Positions 7,605 through 43,749 of a stretch of DNA of 48,699 nucleotides are shown piece after piece. Below the pieces are notes generated by a model. That model saw nothing but the letters and a program-made list of their open reading frames with translations. It was not told the DNA's origin and searched no databases. Every line of letters begins with the position of its first letter. The first letter of the stretch is position 1. The position numbers were made by a program, and so were the translations under genes. Source of the DNA: a bacterium (GTDB lineage Bacteria; Desulfobacterota_D; UBA1144); assembly GCA_018654605.1 (NCBI GenBank), contig JABILG010000017.1, positions 1 through 48,699 on the forward strand, given 5' to 3'.

Positions 7605-8387
7605 ATGGATATTTTAGATAAAATAATCTCCAATAAGAAGAAAGAAGTTTCTTTATTAAAAAAGAGCTTCCCTATTGAAGACCTAGAGTCAGGTATTAAG
7701 AATAAGTCTTATTTAAAAAGAGATTTCCTTGGATCTTTTTTAGATAGGAATATTATTAGTATAATAGCAGAGATTAAGAAAGCATCGCCATCTAAAGGTG
7801 TCATATTAGAAGATTTTCAGCCTCTAAAGATTGCACTAGAGTATGAAGCCGGAGGCGCTTCAGCGATATCAATATTAACAGATGAGCTCTTCTTCAAAGG
7901 TAAGATTGACTATATACCTTCAGTAAGAACTCTTACCACTATTCCTTTGTTAAGAAAGGACTTTATTGTTGATGAGTATCAAATTGTTCAAAGTAGGTTT
8001 TATGAAGCCGATGCAATATTGTTAATTGGAAGAGTCCTTAGTGCGGCTGAACTAAGTAATCTTTTGACACTAGCAAGTGATAATGATTTGGATGTCTTAT
8101 ATGAGGCACATGATGAAGAAGACTTGAATAAGGGAATAGAAGCCGGTGTTAAAATCTTTGGCATAAACAATAGAGATTTATCAAATTTTAATGTTAGTAA
8201 TGATAATATAATCAAGCTTTATCAGAAAATTCCTAATGATGCAATTTTGATAAGTGAAAGTGGAATAGCGGGGCCTGAAGATGTTGCTACTTTAAAGAAA
8301 GTAGGAATATCAAATTTTCTAGTTGGTGAGAGTATTATGAAATCAGAGAATAGAGTTAATTTCATACAAAACTTAATTAAAGCTTAA
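7605..8387 (+). CDS. trpC: Indole-3-glycerol phosphate synthase
   Basis: A 260-residue TIM-barrel enzyme that closes the indole ring in tryptophan synthesis. Motifs include IAEIKKASPSKG with the catalytic lysine, LLRKDFIVDEYQ, FGINNRDL and LISESGI near the phosphate site. There is no fused TrpF domain. Last gene of the ribBA run; its final 11 bases overlap the 3' end of convergent obgE. Confidence 0.96.
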   Translation: MDILDKIISNKKKEVSLLKKSFPIEDLESGIKNKSYLKRDFLGSFLDRNIISIIAEIKKASPSKGVILEDFQPLKIALEYEAGGASAISILTDELFFKGKIDYIPSVRTLTTIPLLRKDFIVDEYQIVQSRFYEADAILLIGRVLSAAELSNLLTLASDNDLDVLYEAHDEEDLNKGIEAGVKIFGINNRDLSNFNVSNDNIIKLYQKIPNDAILISESGIAGPEDVATLKKVGISNFLVGESIMKSENRVNFIQNLIKA

Positions 8388-9363
8388 AGTCCTCAATCAT
8401 TTCTCTTAGTGATTCAATGCCGCTATTATTGTGGCAACTAATTGAAATCTTCCCACAATTCTTGATTGGGTCAAATCCTACAATGTCATCTTTGAAGGAG
8501 CACAAATCTAACTTGTTTAATACTACTAACTTTATTCTTAAAGGTAAGTCCTTATTGTACGAGTTAAGTTCTTTTATCAAAATAGAATGCTGGGACTTAA
8601 GTTCGTCCAAGTTTTTACATGATAAGTCAAGAACTTCTATAAGGAACTTGGATCTTTCTATGTGTTTAAGAAATTTATGACCTAACCCTTTTCCTGAAGA
8701 AGAACCTTCTATAAGTCCGGGTATATCAGCTATAAGGTAATCTTCTATGTCACCTTTTAGTACCCCAATATTTGGATTAAGTGTTGTAAATGCATAATCG
8801 CCAACTTCAGCCTTTGAGTTTGTGATTTTGGTAATTATTGAGGACTTTCCAACATTTGGAAAACCAACCAAGCTCAAATCAGAAATTGTCTTTAGGTCTA
8901 GCGCAATCTTTAATTTGTCTCCCTTTTTGCCATCTTTCGCCTTAGTAGGAGCTCTGTTTGTAGAAGATTTGAAAAAAGTATTACCAAGCCCGCCTTTGCC
9001 ACCCTCTAGTATTCTTACTCCCTTTCCTTCTATGGTGATATCCGCAATTTTAATATTATTTTCTATATCATAGATTTCTGTACCTAGAGGGACATATATC
9101 TTTAGATCATCTCCATTTCTTCCGTTCTTTTTATTAGACCCTCCATTGCCTCCGTTGATAGCTTTAAATATTCTTTTATTACGAAAATCTCGCAAAGAGT
9201 TAATATTCTTATTGCCAACAAAAATAATACTTCCTCCATTCCCACCATTACCTCCATCAGGTCCACCGAATGGAATATACTTTTCTCTTCTAAACGAAGC
9301 AAGACCATTTCCTCCATTTCCCGAGGTAATTTGGATTTCAGCATAATCTAAAAAGCTATTCAT
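8377..9363 (-). CDS. obgE: Obg family GTPase
   Basis: A 328-residue ribosome-associated GTPase. The glycine-rich Obg domain (residues 1-~155) is full of GGNGG repeats. The G domain has the P-loop GFPNVGKSS (167-175), G3 DIPGL and G4 NKLD. There is no C-terminal extension beyond the G domain. The ATG at 9363 is chosen because homology begins there (MNSFLDYAEI) and AAGGA stands 7 nt before it; longer in-frame starts upstream run through the divergent promoter. Its 3' end overlaps trpC by 11 bases. Confidence 0.95.
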   Translation of the reverse strand: MNSFLDYAEIQITSGNGGNGLASFRREKYIPFGGPDGGNGGNGGSIIFVGNKNINSLRDFRNKRIFKAINGGNGGSNKKNGRNGDDLKIYVPLGTEIYDIENNIKIADITIEGKGVRILEGGKGGLGNTFFKSSTNRAPTKAKDGKKGDKLKIALDLKTISDLSLVGFPNVGKSSIITKITNSKAEVGDYAFTTLNPNIGVLKGDIEDYLIADIPGLIEGSSSGKGLGHKFLKHIERSKFLIEVLDLSCKNLDELKSQHSILIKELNSYNKDLPLRIKLVVLNKLDLCSFKDDIVGFDPIKNCGKISISCHNNSGIESLREMIEDFKL

Positions 9364-9373
9364 TTCTTTATCC

Positions 9374-9402
9374 TTGACATTAAAATGACACGACAATATT
9401 AT
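9374..9402 (+). promoter_or_regulatory. bamD promoter, predicted leaderless
   Basis: TTGACA (9374-9379), a 17-bp spacer and TATTAT (9397-9402), with only seven bases before the bamD ATG at 9410. This near-consensus promoter should start transcription at or next to the start codon. Its -10 shares the heptamer TATTATA with the obgE -10 on the other strand. Confidence 0.8.
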
Positions 9403-9406
9403 AGCA
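9398..9406 (-). promoter_or_regulatory. obgE extended -10 promoter
   Basis: Minus strand TGCTATAAT (9406-9398) is a perfect extended -10; no good -35 is seen. The predicted leader is about 28 nt and holds AAGGA ahead of the obgE ATG. It lies on top of the bamD -10 box. Confidence 0.6.
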
Positions 9407-9409
9407 TCT

Positions 9410-10168
9410 ATGTTCAATCGATTATTAAAAGTTTTTTTTGTCTTAATTATCCTTGCATCATGTTCCAAAAGAGAAGATTTCTTAACTGGATCTGATCAAG
9501 AGATTTATAATCTAATAGTCAAAGAAATTAATAAAAAGAAGAAGTACTTAGTTTTAAATCATACTGATTTTAGCTTGCTAGAGGATATGATTACTACTCT
9601 CCAGATTAGGTACCCATATTCACCATACACAAGGGAGGCATATCTATTAAGTGGCGATGTTGCTTTTAAGAGAAAAAGATATCCATTAGCAATAAATGAA
9701 TATTCAGAGTTTATAAAGAATCAGGTTAATCACCCAAAAACAGATTATGCAACATTTAGAATCTTAAAGTCACACTCAATGCTAATAGCTGCTAAAGATA
9801 AGAATGTCGATCCTGCTAAAGATATTCTTAATATATATGCCACTTTGTCTGCTGTTTATAAAAGTACTGAATACATGGCAGAGACTGAAAGGATATACAA
9901 AAAAGCTAAGAGGTTCATCTTAAAAAGAGGAATTTATGTTGCCAAATATTATGTTAAGAAGGGAGAGTTTAGCTCAGCTTTAGGAAGGTTAAACAATACA
10001 GAAACTTTGGTTCCTAATTTAGCAAAAAATAGTGCAGAAGCTCAGTACCTTATAGTTTTGTCCCAAATTAAAACCTTAAAAGATGCAGATAAGATAACCT
10101 TAATAAGTTCTTACAAAAAAAGGTTTCCAAAATCAGATTTCATAGAAGATCTCGAGAACCTACTTTAA
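9410..10168 (+). CDS. bamD: BamD/YfiO-like outer-membrane assembly lipoprotein
   Basis: A 252-residue lipoprotein with a hydrophobic signal (residues 4-15) and lipobox L-A-S-C, lipidation expected at Cys18. The mature part has TPR-like helical repeats with the BamD-like sequence YPYSPYTREAYLLSGDVAFKRKRYPLAINEYSEFI in its first half. BamD is the essential lipoprotein partner of BamA in inserting beta-barrel proteins. Identity is inferred from lipobox, length and repeat pattern; a CpoB-like TPR lipoprotein is the main alternative. It heads a bamD-prmA-mtnA operon and has no Shine-Dalgarno because its promoter abuts the ATG. Confidence 0.65.
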   Translation: MFNRLLKVFFVLIILASCSKREDFLTGSDQEIYNLIVKEINKKKKYLVLNHTDFSLLEDMITTLQIRYPYSPYTREAYLLSGDVAFKRKRYPLAINEYSEFIKNQVNHPKTDYATFRILKSHSMLIAAKDKNVDPAKDILNIYATLSAVYKSTEYMAETERIYKKAKRFILKRGIYVAKYYVKKGEFSSALGRLNNTETLVPNLAKNSAEAQYLIVLSQIKTLKDADKITLISSYKKRFPKSDFIEDLENLL

Positions 10169-12587: not shown

Positions 12588-12615
12588 AAGATAAGCGGAT
12601 TAAAATATTTGTCAA
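12588..12615 (-). promoter_or_regulatory. dksA-like gene promoter
   Basis: Minus strand TTGACA (12615-12610), a 16-bp spacer and TATCTT (12593-12588), giving a leader of about 14 nt with GGAG. Its -35 lies inside the heptamer TTGTCAA shared with the divergent transporter promoter. Confidence 0.6.
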
Positions 12616-16800: not shown

Positions 16801-17670
16801 TTAAAATTTTAGATTGTCTATTAATCTTATTGACCCTAGCTTAATTGCAACTAAAATATAGTCCTTAGTATCGGGAGTCAAAGGATAGCTTAAATCTTTT
16901 GGATTAATAATTTTAATGTACTCGATACAAGTAATATTCTTACTAGAGTAGTATGTTCTCAAATTCTTGATTATCTTTTTTGTTATAACTTTATTGTTTT
17001 TCTTAAATTCATCTCTTGCCCTGGTAAGTCCTTTGTATATAAGAGGTGCAATTTTTCTCGCCTTCTTCGAAAGCCTAATATTTCTTGAACTCATAGCTAA
17101 ACCATCTTTTTCTCTAACTATAGGAATAGAAATAACTTTGATGGGTAAGTTAAGATCCTTGACCATCTGTTTGATTATAATTAATTGTTGCAAGTCTTTC
17201 TCACCAAAATAAGAATAATCAGGGATAGTTATATTGAAAAGTTTTAGTACTACTGAGGTCACACCATCAAAGTGTCCGACTCTGGTGGCCCCGCATAGGT
17301 GATTCTTAAAGTCTGTTACAGATACTTTTGTCTGATATCCTTTTGGATATACTTCTTCAAGTTTTGGTGCAAATAGATAATCTACACCTACTTCCTCTAG
17401 CTTTGCAATATCTTTTTTAATAGTGCTTGGGTATTTCTCTAAATCTTTCTTATTATTAAATTGTATAGGATTAATAAAGATTGTAACTATTATAATACCG
17501 TCTTTCTTTTTAGCTTTTCTTACCAAGCTTAAATGACCGTCATGAAGTGCTCCCATAGTGGGAACTAGAGAAACCTTCTTCTTACCTTTTCTTCTAATAG
17601 CTAATGAAATTTTCTGCATTTCATTAGCAGAAGTAATAACTTTAAGGGAATTTATTTTTTTTGACTTCAT
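16801..17670 (-). CDS. panC: Pantothenate synthetase
   Basis: A 289-residue ligase joining pantoate and beta-alanine. Motifs include VPTMGALHDGHLSLV with the HxGH nucleotide signature, FINPIQFN and MSSRN. The ATG at 17670 is preferred because the N terminus then matches family length; it lies inside the last codons of panB, an overlap of 29 bases. A TTG five codons further up is possible. Confidence 0.94.
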   Translation of the reverse strand: MKSKKINSLKVITSANEMQKISLAIRRKGKKKVSLVPTMGALHDGHLSLVRKAKKKDGIIIVTIFINPIQFNNKKDLEKYPSTIKKDIAKLEEVGVDYLFAPKLEEVYPKGYQTKVSVTDFKNHLCGATRVGHFDGVTSVVLKLFNITIPDYSYFGEKDLQQLIIIKQMVKDLNLPIKVISIPIVREKDGLAMSSRNIRLSKKARKIAPLIYKGLTRARDEFKKNNKVITKKIIKNLRTYYSSKNITCIEYIKIINPKDLSYPLTPDTKDYILVAIKLGSIRLIDNLKF

Positions 17671-18415
17671 TTTTATATTTACCAACTGATTTCTTCATTA
17701 GTACTCTCATATTAGAATAATTCTTCACAAAGGATGGGTGTGGAGAGGGTGTTATTCCTAACATATCTTCAGTGACAAGAATCTGTCCATCACACATTTT
17801 TCCCGCACCAATTCCAATAGTCGGGATTTTGATAGTTTTAGTAATCTTTGAAGCTAAATTGTCTGGAACACCTTCAATTACAATTATTGAGGCACCATTT
17901 TTTTCAGCTTCTTTTGAGAGGGCTAAAATATAATCTTGATTAGCTCTCGTCTTACCTTGCTTTTTATATCCCCCATAAACATTAAATGATTGTGGGCATA
18001 GTCCAACATGAGCAACAACAGGTATACCTGCATTCCCGAGCTTTTGAATTGTAGGGATAGTATCGAAGCTAATTTCGAGTTTAAGAGACTGAGCTTTTGT
18101 AGTTTTAATTATTTTACCTGCATTTCTTAATGCGTCAGTTGTGGAAGATTGGTAAGACATAAAGGGCATGTCAATGCAAAGATGAGCATTTTTAACTCCT
18201 CTAGATACAGATAGTCCATGGTATATCATATCATCAACTGTAACGCCAAGAGTCGTTTCCTCGCCCTTGAATACATTCCCTAAAGAATCTCCAACAAGTA
18301 TAAAGTCACAATAGGAATCTATAATAGAAGCTGTTTGAAAATCATATGCTGTAAGAGCTACTATACGCTCTTTATTTGATTTCATTGATTGTAAGTCTTG
18401 TACAGATTTCCTCAA
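17642..18415 (-). CDS. panB: 3-methyl-2-oxobutanoate hydroxymethyltransferase
   Basis: A 257-residue TIM-barrel enzyme, first committed step of pantothenate synthesis. Motifs are VALTAYDFQTA, LVGDSLGNV with the metal-binding Asp, HLCIDMPFMSY and IPTIGIGAG. The start is taken as TTG at 18415: the family N terminus (SVQDLQSMK) begins just after it, and AAGGAAGGG lies directly upstream. An ATG at 18472 would add 19 residues without homology, encoded by promoter-like sequence, and is rejected. panB-panC-panD form one operon. Confidence 0.9.
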   Translation of the reverse strand: MRKSVQDLQSMKSNKERIVALTAYDFQTASIIDSYCDFILVGDSLGNVFKGEETTLGVTVDDMIYHGLSVSRGVKNAHLCIDMPFMSYQSSTTDALRNAGKIIKTTKAQSLKLEISFDTIPTIQKLGNAGIPVVAHVGLCPQSFNVYGGYKKQGKTRANQDYILALSKEAEKNGASIIVIEGVPDNLASKITKTIKIPTIGIGAGKMCDGQILVTEDMLGITPSPHPSFVKNYSNMRVLMKKSVGKYKNEVKKNKFP

Positions 18416-18431
18416 TACCCTTCCTTGATCA

Positions 18432-18459
18432 TTTACAATTTTATATATAGCTATATTAT
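18432..18459 (+). promoter_or_regulatory. alaC promoter, very short leader
   Basis: TTTACA (18432-18437), a 16-bp spacer and TATTAT (18454-18459), 11 bases before the alaC ATG at 18471. Its -10 is part of TATTATA, which on the minus strand reads TATAAT and may serve panB. Confidence 0.5.
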
Positions 18460-18460
18460 A
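18455..18460 (-). promoter_or_regulatory. Candidate panB -10 box
   Basis: Minus strand TATAAT (18460-18455) overlaps the alaC -10 box in the heptamer TATTATA. No good -35 lies 17 bp upstream. It would give a leader of roughly 33 nt with AAGGAAGGG before the TTG start. Confidence 0.4.
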
Positions 18461-18470
18461 TTTAAAAAAC

Positions 18471-19649
18471 ATGTCTATTAATAGTGAAAACTTTTCTCTT
18501 CTATCAAAACTGCCCCAGTATGTATTTTCGTCTGTAAATGAACTTAAATACGAAGCAAGAATTCGTGGTGAGGATATAATTGATTTTGGTATGGGAAATC
18601 CAGACCAACCAACGCCAAGACATATAATTGAGAAATTGTTGGAATCTTCTGTTCAAGGGAGAAATCATAGGTATTCGGTTTCCGCAGGCTTGCCAAAATT
18701 GAGACTTGCTATAAGTAGCTGGTATAAAAGAAATTATAATGTTGATTTAGACCCAGAAACCGAGACCATAGTTACTATAGGGTCAAAAGAAGGATTGTCA
18801 CATTTAATGATTTCTTTGTTAGCACCTGGCGAGACGGTCTTGGTTCCTGACCCTTGCTATCCTATTCACAGCTACTCCGTCCTTATTGCGAGAGGAAATA
18901 TAAAAGAATATAACTCGATAGATGACAAAAGATTATTAGAAAATATTGAACAAGGTTTAAAGTCAGAGCCTAAGCCCAAAGCCTTAATAATATCTTTTCC
19001 TAGCAATCCAACTACGCAAACTGTTGAGTTGGATTTTTTCACTAAGATTGTAGAGCTTGGCAAGAAATATTCAGTAATTGTAATTCATGATTTTGCTTAT
19101 GCCGATATTTGCTTTGATAATTATAAGGCACCTAGTTTCCTCCAAGCTTCAGGGTCAATGGATGTTGGCGTTGAGTCTTTCTCTTTATCTAAGAGCTACA
19201 ATATGGCGGGATGGCGTGTTGGTTTTATGTGTGGGAATAGTGAAGTCATATCTGCACTTAAAAGAGTTAAAAGTTATCTGGATTATGGGATATTCCAACC
19301 AATTCAAATATCAGCTATCACGGCCTTAAACGAAACTCAGGAATGTGTTAATGAAATTAGGGAAAACTATAGATTAAGAAGGAATAGGCTTGTTGATGGA
19401 TTAAACAAAATAGGTTGGGAGATTGAGACTCCAAAGGCAACTATGTTTGTCTGGGCAAAGATTCCCAATCAATTCATAGAACTAGGGTCGTTGGAATTTT
19501 CAAAAAAATTAATTAAGGAATGTAATGTTGCCGTTTCTCCCGGAATTGGTTTTGGTAAAAGTGGCGATGAGTATGTAAGATTTGCTCTTATAGAAAATGA
19601 ACAACGAATACAACAAGCGGCAAGGTCACTCAGAAAACTATTTAAATAA
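18471..19649 (+). CDS. alaC: AlaC-like class I aminotransferase
   Basis: A 392-residue PLP-dependent fold-type I aminotransferase. Features include the GMGNPDQPTP substrate segment near residue 40, SNPTTQTVE, HDFAYADI, and the PLP-binding lysine Lys241 in SLSKSYNMAGWRVGF. This set matches alanine-forming AlaC/YfdZ-type enzymes that transfer an amino group between glutamate and pyruvate, though LL-diaminopimelate aminotransferase relatives are close. It overlaps mltD by one base (TAATG) and has no Shine-Dalgarno. Confidence 0.8.
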   Translation: MSINSENFSLLSKLPQYVFSSVNELKYEARIRGEDIIDFGMGNPDQPTPRHIIEKLLESSVQGRNHRYSVSAGLPKLRLAISSWYKRNYNVDLDPETETIVTIGSKEGLSHLMISLLAPGETVLVPDPCYPIHSYSVLIARGNIKEYNSIDDKRLLENIEQGLKSEPKPKALIISFPSNPTTQTVELDFFTKIVELGKKYSVIVIHDFAYADICFDNYKAPSFLQASGSMDVGVESFSLSKSYNMAGWRVGFMCGNSEVISALKRVKSYLDYGIFQPIQISAITALNETQECVNEIRENYRLRRNRLVDGLNKIGWEIETPKATMFVWAKIPNQFIELGSLEFSKKLIKECNVAVSPGIGFGKSGDEYVRFALIENEQRIQQAARSLRKLFK

Positions 19650-23718: not shown

Positions 23719-23747
23719 TTGACTAAAACTATTAAAGGAAGTATTTT
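23719..23747 (+). promoter_or_regulatory. carA promoter, near-leaderless
   Basis: TTGACT (23719-23724), a 17-bp spacer and TATTTT (23742-23747), ten bases before the ATG at 23758. Family alignment fixes that ATG as the start, so the expected leader is only about 3 nt. An in-frame TTG exists inside the -35 box itself and is not a start codon. Confidence 0.65.
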
Positions 23748-31696: not shown

Positions 31697-32953
31697 CTAA
31701 CTGATAATATCTAGATTGTTCAAATAAGGTCTTAATATTTTAGGTATGGTGACTGTGCCATCAGAATTCTGAAAATTTTCTAGGATTGCCACAAATGTTC
31801 TGCCAACTGCTAAGCCAGAGCCATTTAGAGTATGGACGAAATTTGATTTATTTTCTATTTTGTATTTGATATTGGCTCTTCTTGACTGAAATGATAGGAA
31901 ATTGCTGCATGAAGAAATTTCACGGTACTTGTTTTCGGAAGGAATCCATACTTCAATATCGTAGGTTTTACTTGATGAGAAGCTTGTATCACCTGAAGAT
32001 AAAGTAACAACTCTGTAGGGCAACTCTAGCTTGTCAAGGATAGAACATGCATCTTCTGTTAACGTCTCTAGTTCTTCATAAGAAGAAAATTCGTCAGTAA
32101 TCTTTACTAGTTCAATTTTATTGAATTGGTGTTGTCTTATCAGGCCTTTTACATCCTTCCCATAAGATCCTGCTTCAGATCTAAAACATGCACTATACGC
32201 TACATACTTAATAGGTAGCTCCGAAGAATCTAGGATTTCATTCGAATGCATATTCGTTAATGGAACTTCTGCAGTAGGAATTAGATAGTTGTTTGTACCT
32301 TCGATTTTAAATAACTCTTCTTCAAACTTAGGGAGATTTCCTGTACCAATGAAGCTCTCTTTATTGCAAATGAAGGGAGGAAATATCTCAGTATAATTTT
32401 TTTTAGAATGTTCATCTAACATGAAATTAATTAAAGCACGCTCAAGTTTAGCTCCTAGGCCCTTATATAAATTAAATCTTGCTCCAGTAATTTTTGCAGC
32501 AGCCTCTAAATCAAAAAGTTTTAAGTTTTTTCCAAGTTCTATATGATTTAGTATCTTAAAATCTTGCTTCTTTATTGTCCCCTTCTTTCTTATCTCTTTA
32601 TTGGATAATTCATCATCTCCGATTGGAACTGAATCATCATGAAGGTTTGGAATCTCTAGTAATAATTCAGTCAGCTTTTGCTCAACTTCTTTCTTGACCT
32701 TTTCTGCATCTTTACTTTGACCAGAAAATTCTTTAATTTCTTTTAGCTCATCTTCAGAAGGTTTTCTTTTCTCTTGGGTTATTTTCTTGTTAAATTCATT
32801 GAGTTTAGCCTTTAATTCTTCTAAGTTTTGAATTGATTTCTTTCTTAGCACGTATAAATCGTAGAATTTATTGTAGTCTAGTTTGTATTTTTTATTAGAA
32901 AGCTTCTTTAAAACTAATTCTTTGTTGTTAAAAATAAAATTTGGGTCAATCAT
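31697..32953 (-). CDS. serS: Seryl-tRNA synthetase
   Basis: A 418-residue class II synthetase. The N-terminal coiled-coil arm (residues ~25-100) reaches the long variable arm of tRNA-Ser. Motif 2 is seen as FRSEAGSYGKDVKGLIRQHQF, and motif 3 as GSGLAVGRTFVAILEN. No T-box leader is present. It is divergent from the UPF0173 gene with overlapping promoters. Confidence 0.97.
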   Translation of the reverse strand: MIDPNFIFNNKELVLKKLSNKKYKLDYNKFYDLYVLRKKSIQNLEELKAKLNEFNKKITQEKRKPSEDELKEIKEFSGQSKDAEKVKKEVEQKLTELLLEIPNLHDDSVPIGDDELSNKEIRKKGTIKKQDFKILNHIELGKNLKLFDLEAAAKITGARFNLYKGLGAKLERALINFMLDEHSKKNYTEIFPPFICNKESFIGTGNLPKFEEELFKIEGTNNYLIPTAEVPLTNMHSNEILDSSELPIKYVAYSACFRSEAGSYGKDVKGLIRQHQFNKIELVKITDEFSSYEELETLTEDACSILDKLELPYRVVTLSSGDTSFSSSKTYDIEVWIPSENKYREISSCSNFLSFQSRRANIKYKIENKSNFVHTLNGSGLAVGRTFVAILENFQNSDGTVTIPKILRPYLNNLDIIS

Positions 32954-32959
32954 TAAAAT

Positions 32960-32988
32960 TTGAACTCACTTTTTTTTTCGTATATCAT
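32960..32988 (+). promoter_or_regulatory. Promoter of the UPF0173-HemQ pair
   Basis: TTGAAC (32960-32965), a 17-bp spacer and TATCAT (32983-32988), with a leader of about 35 nt containing a GGGGG Shine-Dalgarno-like stretch. The -10 is part of heptamer TATCATA shared with the serS promoter. Confidence 0.55.
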
Positions 32989-32992
32989 AACA
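32984..32992 (-). promoter_or_regulatory. serS extended -10 promoter
   Basis: Minus strand TGTTATGAT (32992-32984) is an extended -10 (TG-N-TATGAT) overlapping the opposite gene's -10 box. The leader to the serS ATG is about 24 nt. No clear -35. Confidence 0.5.
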
Positions 32993-33029
32993 TGGATTTA
33001 ATTATATTTTTAATACACGGGGGTTTAAG

Positions 33030-33746
33030 ATGAGAAATAAAGAAGTAGATATACAATATGTGGGTCATTCTACGTATATTTTGGACAATAAGGCTGGAAC
33101 AAGAATATTGATTGATCCTTGGCTTAAAAATAATCCAGCATGTCCTAAAAATTTACAAGAACCTAAAGATATTGATTATATAATGATAACCCATGGTCAC
33201 TTCGACCATATTGGAGATTTATTTGCTGCAATTGAACTTAATAAGGATGTCAAGATAATTACAAGTCTAGAGATATCCTCATGGCTTAATGCAAAAGGCG
33301 TATCCAATACCCTACCTATGGGCATTGGCGGAACTCAACCTATAGATAATGAGATTAAAGTAACTATGGTTAATGCTGTTCATGCGTCTGGAATAGCCGA
33401 TGATTCATCAGAGGCCATGTTGTATGGTGGTGTAGCAAATGGATATGTTATCACTTTCAAAAATGGATTTAGTATTTACTTTGCCGGAGATACTGCAATT
33501 TTCTCTGACATGAAACTGATTGGCGAAATTTATTCACCAGATGTAGCTGTTTTGCCTATTGGCGATCATTTTACAATGGGACCTAAAGAGGCTTTTTATG
33601 CTACAAAACTCATAGGGGCTAAGCACGTTATACCTTTTCATTATGGAACTTTCCCTGTTTTAGTCGGAACCCCAGAAGAGTACATTGAGCTTGTTAAAGA
33701 TTTAGATGTTAATGTTTATGTTCTTAATCCAGGCGATGTGATATAA
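33030..33746 (+). CDS. UPF0173 metal-dependent hydrolase
   Basis: A 238-residue metallo-beta-lactamase-fold hydrolase. The metal motif H-x-H-x-D-H is HGHFDH (His55, His57, Asp59, His60), with further ligands in YFAGDTA and IPFHYGTFP. It lacks a signal peptide. Substrate unknown; members resemble YtkL/UlaG-like enzymes. It runs 2 bases ahead of the HemQ-family gene, suggesting co-expression. Confidence 0.9.
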   Translation: MRNKEVDIQYVGHSTYILDNKAGTRILIDPWLKNNPACPKNLQEPKDIDYIMITHGHFDHIGDLFAAIELNKDVKIITSLEISSWLNAKGVSNTLPMGIGGTQPIDNEIKVTMVNAVHASGIADDSSEAMLYGGVANGYVITFKNGFSIYFAGDTAIFSDMKLIGEIYSPDVAVLPIGDHFTMGPKEAFYATKLIGAKHVIPFHYGTFPVLVGTPEEYIELVKDLDVNVYVLNPGDVI

Positions 33747-42562: not shown

Positions 42563-42574
42563 TTTAATAAGAAC

Positions 42575-42583
42575 ATTATAGCA
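42575..42583 (-). promoter_or_regulatory. Extended -10 promoter of the tolC-rseP run
   Basis: Minus strand TGCTATAAT (42583-42575), identical to the obgE extended -10. Predicted transcription start about 5 nt before the tolC ATG at 42562. No strong -35. It touches the hemW start codon at 42583. Confidence 0.55.
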
Positions 42584-43749
42584 TGAGTAACAAATTTGGT
42601 ATATATATTCACATTCCTTTTTGTAAAACAATATGCCCTTTCTGTAATTTTAATGTTTACCTCTCAAGTTCAGCTGACTACGATGAACTAGTTTCTTTTT
42701 TGTTGGATGAATTAAGAACCAAATCCGTCTTATTTTCTGACAAGAAGCTAGTGAGCATACATTTTGGTGGAGGAACACCATCTTTACTTCCCCCTCGTTT
42801 GTTAAAAAAGATTCTTAATCAGATAGAAAGATTGTTTTTAGTAGAATCAGATTGTGAAATTGCTCTAGAGATTAATCCTTACGATAATGAAGTCGAAGAG
42901 CCTGTATTATTTAAAGATCTTGGTATAAACAGACTTAGCGTCGGGATTCAATCTTTTAACAACAAAAAACTTAAGATATTAGGAAGGAATTCCACTAAAG
43001 AATCTAATCTGTATTTTATTAGGAAGATCTCGGATTGTGGATTTACAAACTTAAGCTTTGATTTTATTTTTGGAGTTGACAAGGAGTCGCTAAAAGAATG
43101 GGAAGAGGAGCTGTTACATTTAAAAGAACTTGATATTCAACATGTGTCGACTTATTGCCTAACGATTGAAAAGTCAACAGCTTTTTGGAAAATGCGTGAC
43201 AGAGGAGATATTGTAGAAGTCTCAGATAACATTTTTTTAGATATGATGGATTTAACAAAAAAACAATTAAATCAGATTGGAATTGAACAGTATGAGATTT
43301 CTAATTATTCAAAACCATTATACGAGTCAAGGCATAATTTATTATACTGGAATAGCGATTCGTATCTTGGTATTGGTCCAGGAGCACACTCATCATTAAT
43401 TGATATTGAAGAGGGTAAATATTACAGGTGGAGTAATCCTAAATCAATTAAGCAGTATGGAAAACTTTTAAGTTTAAAATCTGATACTTTAATAAACCAC
43501 TCATTGGGAATACGAGAATATATTAAAGACACTTTTATGATGGGGTTGAGATTAAAGAAAGGTGTAAATATCGAGAGCCTGAACTTGGTAAGCAGCTTCT
43601 CTATTAACCAGCGAATAATTGACGAGCTAACAAAGCAGCACTTGATTGTGAATAAAGATAATAACCTCGCTTTGACTGATACGGGCTTTAATGTTTCAAA
43701 TGAAGTAATATTTAGAGTTATAGATAATATTGATTTTATTGATGATTAA
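42583..43749 (+). CDS. hemW: HemW-like radical SAM haem chaperone
   Basis: A 388-residue radical SAM protein of the HemW (former HemN-like) family. The cluster motif C-x3-C-x2-C is Cys14, Cys18, Cys21 (CKTICPFC), and the family motif HFGGGTPSLL and the SAM-binding LSVGIQSF are present. HemW binds haem and delivers it to respiratory proteins; it is not a coproporphyrinogen oxidase. It ends with a 14-base overlap with convergent DUF1285. Confidence 0.93.
   Translation: MSNKFGIYIHIPFCKTICPFCNFNVYLSSSADYDELVSFLLDELRTKSVLFSDKKLVSIHFGGGTPSLLPPRLLKKILNQIERLFLVESDCEIALEINPYDNEVEEPVLFKDLGINRLSVGIQSFNNKKLKILGRNSTKESNLYFIRKISDCGFTNLSFDFIFGVDKESLKEWEEELLHLKELDIQHVSTYCLTIEKSTAFWKMRDRGDIVEVSDNIFLDMMDLTKKQLNQIGIEQYEISNYSKPLYESRHNLLYWNSDSYLGIGPGAHSSLIDIEEGKYYRWSNPKSIKQYGKLLSLKSDTLINHSLGIREYIKDTFMMGLRLKKGVNIESLNLVSSFSINQRIIDELTKQHLIVNKDNNLALTDTGFNVSNEVIFRVIDNIDFIDD

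Follow-up and report, generated by a model that had tools for sequence, protein, structure and literature searches.

Symmetric -10 elements conserved between divergent housekeeping genes in a Dadabacteria family are probable bidirectional promoters

Three pairs of divergent, functionally unrelated housekeeping genes in a 48,699-nt stretch of DNA (hereafter the window) are each separated by a short gap holding a TATNATA heptamer that reads as a -10 element on both strands, and in all 14 genomes of the GTDB family of the host the divergent gene order is retained with the heptamer in the gap at all three sites. The reading that we favour, with a probability of roughly 0.78, is that each site would be a housekeeping promoter of sigma-70 type that works in both directions and belongs to the 18-bp class, giving rise to two mRNAs and packed into a short gap. 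The sequence elements and their conservation are observed; that transcription runs both ways from the predicted starts, each direction firing independently at basal level, we infer. Knowledge of bidirectional promoters comes from maps of transcription starts, made for the most part in cultured species. Shared -10s serving two unrelated housekeeping genes throughout a family of an uncultured, streamlined lineage suggest that such promoters have a function beyond mere leakiness.

The window is contig C8 (G+C 32.5%) of a 19-contig, 1.02-Mb genome (G000). Since 'Deltaproteobacteria bacterium TMED58' and 'Candidatus Dadabacteria bacterium UBA1144' are among its named relatives, we take the host to belong to a marine Dadabacteria lineage, and streamlined genomes are reported for Dadabacteria (PMC8115339). 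The initial annotation of the window had assigned shared -10 heptamers to obgE/bamD (TATTATA, 9397), panB/alaC (TATTATA, 18454) and serS/UPF0173 (TATCATA, 32983), two of them extended on the minus side and all with a plus-side -35 at 16-17 bp. These coordinates and their flanks are confirmed; the two extended -10s are TGCTATAAT at site 1 and TGTTATGAT at site 3, with no TG at site 2, and the -35 boxes are TTGACA, TTTACA and TTGAAC at 17, 16 and 17 bp respectively. The gene names hold at the level of Pfam families, namely Obg, YfiO/BamD-like, PanB, class I/II aminotransferase, SerRS and a metallo-beta-lactamase fold. The features of the three sites, with promoter elements read from the sequence, are:

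8377-9363, minus strand: obgE (Pfam PF01018)
9374-9379, plus strand: -35 box TTGACA of the putative bamD promoter, 17 bp from TATTAT (16 bp in genera g3 and g4)
9397-9403, both strands: shared -10 heptamer TATTATA of site 1, read towards obg on the minus and bamD on the plus strand, in 14/14 genomes
9398-9406, minus strand: extended -10 TGCTATAAT towards obg, TGC retained in 14/14 genomes
9410-10168, plus strand: bamD-like (YfiO) gene (Pfam PF13525)
17642-18412, minus strand: panB, its start codon a conserved TTG/ATG some 55 nt away from the ATG of the aminotransferase gene
18432-18437, plus strand: -35 box TTTACA of the putative aminotransferase promoter, 16 bp from TATTAT
18454-18460, both strands: shared -10 heptamer TATTATA of site 2, read towards panB on the minus and the alaC-type aminotransferase on the plus strand, in 14/14 genomes
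18471-19649, plus strand: class I/II aminotransferase (alaC of the initial annotation; Pfam PF00155), predicted leader of about 5 nt
31697-32953, minus strand: serS (Pfam PF02403, PF00587)
32960-32993, both strands: 34-bp element TTGAACTCRCTTTTTTTTTSGTATATCATAACAT comprising the -35, T9 spacer, shared -10 and minus-strand TG
32970-32978, minus strand: A9 tract, T9 when read on the plus strand, where serS transcription is predicted to start; length 9 in 14/14 genomes
32983-32989, both strands: shared -10 heptamer TATCATA of site 3, read towards serS on the minus and UPF0173 on the plus strand, in 14/14 genomes
32984-32992, minus strand: extended -10 TGTTATGAT towards serS, in 14/14 genomes
33030-33746, plus strand: UPF0173-type metallo-beta-lactamase-fold protein (Pfam PF12706, PF13483)

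The -10 is symmetric at 9397, 18454 and 32983, with -11A and -7T reciprocal on the two strands. Loss of the heptamer from relatives, which the initial annotation had named as telling against its proposal, is not what we see: the heptamers are kept in register in 42 of 42 site-by-genome cases and the proposal survives, with the identities of the flanking proteins down to around 40-75% in the most distant genus compared (against G007: Obg 55%, BamD ~41%, PanB 61%, aminotransferase 76%, SerRS 66% and UPF0173 52%). Each heptamer site is the dominant conserved block of its gap. At sites 1 and 3 both readings are constrained, the plus-strand -35 and the minus-strand TG being invariant or nearly so. 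The TG, which occupies plus-strand positions -4/-3, is invariant in 14/14 genomes at both sites, and because a promoter working in the plus direction only does not need it, both directions appear to be used there. This invariance is hard to explain otherwise and constitutes the main evidence for two-way use; that sites 1 and 3 belong to a known class of bidirectional promoter and are conserved as such is well supported.

The principal alternative is that these are one-direction promoters in which the minus reading is a by-product of the near-symmetry of TATAAT, with obg, panB and serS transcribed from elsewhere. Such a by-product would be unsurprising in AT-rich gaps, where A follows TATNAT in about half of cases and TATNATA is common by chance, and it would suit the minus side of site 2, which has neither a TG nor a clear -35. 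It does not, however, account for a fixed minus-strand TG at positions that have no known role in the plus direction, and no other conserved -10-like block was found in the 46-, 58- and 76-bp divergent gaps of sites 1, 2 and 3; we consider it unlikely.

At site 1 the 12-mer AATATTATAGCA (9395-9406) that encloses the heptamer is invariant in 14/14 genomes, each of which has TTGAC with a final A or T as its -35. The plus reading is the top sigma-70-like site of the first 20 kb (11 of 12). The spacer varies in sequence and is 16 bp instead of 17 bp long in two genera, with both -10 readings fixed, and in one genome (G004) the minus-strand TG is retained despite an adjoining 1-nt deletion. Our class-wide pattern for site 1 had a spacer one base too short, so that it matches only the genera with the 16-bp spacer. 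If the start lies at the customary 7 nt from the -10, as we take it for all starts predicted here, transcription would begin at 9409 towards bamD and at about 9391 towards obg, a separation of 18 bp. The -10 ends 7 nt 5' of the bamD ATG (9410), which falls at the predicted +1, so the bamD mRNA would be leaderless. In an outgroup family (f6; L015, L016) the region upstream of obg, which separates it from a divergent lipoprotein gene, has a TATTATAATA motif (TATTATA/TATAATA); for the lipoprotein a Pfam search returned neither BamD nor any other match. Site 1 may have had an earlier form of this kind.

At site 2 TATTATATTTAAAAA is invariant in 14/14 genomes and TTTACA is nearly so, its TACA core being conserved. 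The minus reading is a perfect TATAAT without TG, and no minus-specific element is separable from constraint on the plus strand. With starts predicted at 18466 (aminotransferase) and 18448 (panB), again 18 bp apart, this site is likely to be a bidirectional promoter, with less certainty than sites 1 and 3.

In the proposed mechanism TATNATA would offer a -10 hexamer on both strands, allowing RNA polymerase to load either way, and two mRNAs would begin about 18 bp apart from one heptamer. Towards bamD, the aminotransferase and UPF0173 loading would be aided by the upstream -35 box, 16-17 bp away; in the direction of obg and serS a TG extension would take the place of a -35, and towards panB a perfect TATAAT would act alone. 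The default expectation is that the two directions would fire independently and weakly at basal level. The arrangement may persist because the median divergent gap of 67.5 bp (46 gaps) would be too small for two separate promoters and several genes would be leaderless; two full promoters must overlap in such gaps, and sharing a -10 would be one workable packing. Across 149 upstream regions of contigs C8, C9 and C10, -10-like hexamers peak 6-8 nt 5' of start codons, with 11, 11 and 7 of them compared with roughly 3 per position, and a Shine-Dalgarno-like motif is present in only 42/149 genes with an upstream gap in the G000 sample, from which leaderless mRNAs appear common in this lineage.

The initial annotation had gone further, treating the heptamer as a recurring, lineage-wide regulatory design that couples unrelated genes, the two directions excluding each other and so being co-regulated. 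Its shared symmetric -10 stands, family-wide, whereas the recurrence and the step from exclusion to co-regulation are not supported. Three conserved cases on one 48.7-kb contig speak for such a design, as does an excess of heptamers in divergent gaps. We looked at this excess in 354 kb of G000, taken as stretches and annotated with a simple home-made gene caller, together with samples of three relatives. TATNATA occurs in 17/44 divergent gaps of the G000 sample against 9.1 +- 2.6 in dinucleotide shuffles. Over the four genomes pooled it occurs in 50/134 divergent gaps against 27.8 expected, a 1.8-fold excess whose pooled z-score overstates the evidence as the genomes are related and not independent, and it is mildly enriched in same-direction gaps (40/264 against 28.5 expected). 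Two control palindromes were not enriched and a third (ATANTAT) was mildly so. An A follows TATNAT in 50% of cases in divergent gaps compared with 43% and 55% in same-direction gaps, that is, with no difference between gap classes that would indicate genome-wide selection for symmetry, and the excess is thus explained by the presence of two promoters per divergent gap. Raw enrichment was rejected as a proof of shared -10s, since about half of the occurrences are due to chance and same-direction gaps are also mildly enriched. TATNATA is frequent in this AT-rich DNA (31 copies in the window), so that the heptamer alone cannot prove the claim and conservation does most of the work.

Conservation itself argues against a recurring design. 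A shared heptamer is conserved in 3/8 divergent pairs of the window, the other five keeping none across relatives, and on contig C10 most of the heptamers in G000 divergent gaps are missing from G005 or G007, although the C10 pairs at 17193 and 20952 are possible further shared -10s. With few other comparable pairs retaining a heptamer, shared -10s are, judged by their conservation, a minority arrangement in this genome, as in E. coli. As to co-regulation, steric exclusion would make the two directions anti-correlated, and in E. coli none of five bidirectional promoters studied had directions that competed at basal activity, strong activation of one side repressing the other (PMC12825309). A lineage-wide coupling design is on these grounds very improbable. 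Were competition to occur, the plus side of site 1 would be the first candidate, being the strongest sequence match. The least credible explanation, that TATNATA is present simply because the gaps are about 75% A+T, draws on the 9.1 of 44 divergent gaps expected against 17 seen, which leaves about half of genomic occurrences to chance, but for the three sites it is refuted by the 42/42 in-register conservation, heptamers at other pairs being mostly not conserved.

Two-way promoters of this sort are a known kind and not a new system. A bidirectional promoter has start sites that diverge on the two strands with 7-25 bp, typically 18 bp, between them, and 18 bp is the commonest spacing in E. coli and Salmonella (PMC12825309, PMC10268837). 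Bidirectional promoters give rise to 19% of E. coli RNAs. Of the bidirectional promoters in that species, 24% lie between divergent genes and yield two mRNAs (PMC12825309). The three sites have the same geometry as those described (Warman et al. 2021, Nat Microbiol; PMC12825309; PMC10268837), with reciprocal -11A/-7T and starts 18 bp apart, here predicted. They differ in that the starts are inferred from sequence, that conservation is documented per site across a whole family and that the flanking genes are unrelated housekeeping genes without an adjacent regulator. The minus readings at sites 1 and 3 resemble extended -10 (TGn) promoters in being TGn followed by TATAAT or TATGAT without a recognisable -35, but here they overlap a full -35/-10 promoter on the opposite strand.

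Site 3 is unusually strictly conserved. Its plus reading consists of TTGAAC (32960-32965, conserved in the family), a 17-bp spacer made up of the fixed T9 tract and its flanks, and TATCAT. The TTGAACTCRCTTTTTTTTTSGTATATCATAACAT consensus has 0 mismatches in 14/14 family genomes; a search of 44 genomes from the rest of the class that allowed up to 3 mismatches did not find it. Its region is the longest conserved block among 78 gaps, apart from tRNA genes and one tied block (36 bp each against G007), which by eye we take to be the end of the RNase P RNA. The element has two variable positions that change in concert, being A..C or G..G (A..G in one case), and two genera contain both states. Its conservation is stricter than a promoter requires, and it offers a small testable element.

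With starts predicted at 32995 (UPF0173) and about 32977 (serS), 18 bp apart, the serS transcript would open within the A9 tract, covering 8/9 As from 32977 downwards. Homopolymer tract lengths normally vary, and a fixed A9/T9 across 14 genomes suggests selection; slippage or start selection, DNA curvature and a spacer-bound protein are candidate reasons. What is new here is that 34 bp match their consensus without mismatch in 14 genomes and include an A9 where serS transcription is predicted to begin. A likeness is offered by initiation at homopolymer tracts (reiterative transcription or slippage), slippage at serS itself being a sequence-based lead. A more speculative reading, to which we give rather little weight, is that site 3 may be a family-specific two-way control element of 34 bp whose T9 spacer doubles as an A9 initiation tract, the serS mRNA beginning among the As, where slippage or the choice of start would respond to ATP or initiation conditions, and that it would be near-invariant since each part serves both directions.

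An Rfam search of the window returned two tRNAs only, with no match at the serS leader, whose predicted fold is no better than that of shuffles. We also dropped the idea that GAGTTCAAAT, which lies upstream of serS, is a tRNA-like T-arm, this sequence being the complement of the -35 box with no conserved stem. Our search for a second genomic copy of the site 3 element gave only a partial match with 2 mismatches in front of dapL, in which the T-rich spacer, but not the exact tract, is kept in relatives. This LL-diaminopimelate aminotransferase promoter (G000:C10:34638-34676; L048, L096) has TTTGAA and a T-rich spacer that is T9 in G000, and around 40 bp of it are conserved with G005, the tract length varying elsewhere.

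Promoter elements also bear on start codons elsewhere in the window. In the tolC/hemW pair (42563-42585) the extended -10 read towards tolC is conserved (TGCTATAAT in G000) and shares bases with the start codon of hemW, so that the annotated tolC TTG start is probably too far upstream. The longest-ORF TTG starts of the dksA-like gene (12610-12615) and carA (23719-23724) coincide with the -35 boxes TTGACA and TTGACT, which places the predicted true starts of both genes downstream of those TTGs.
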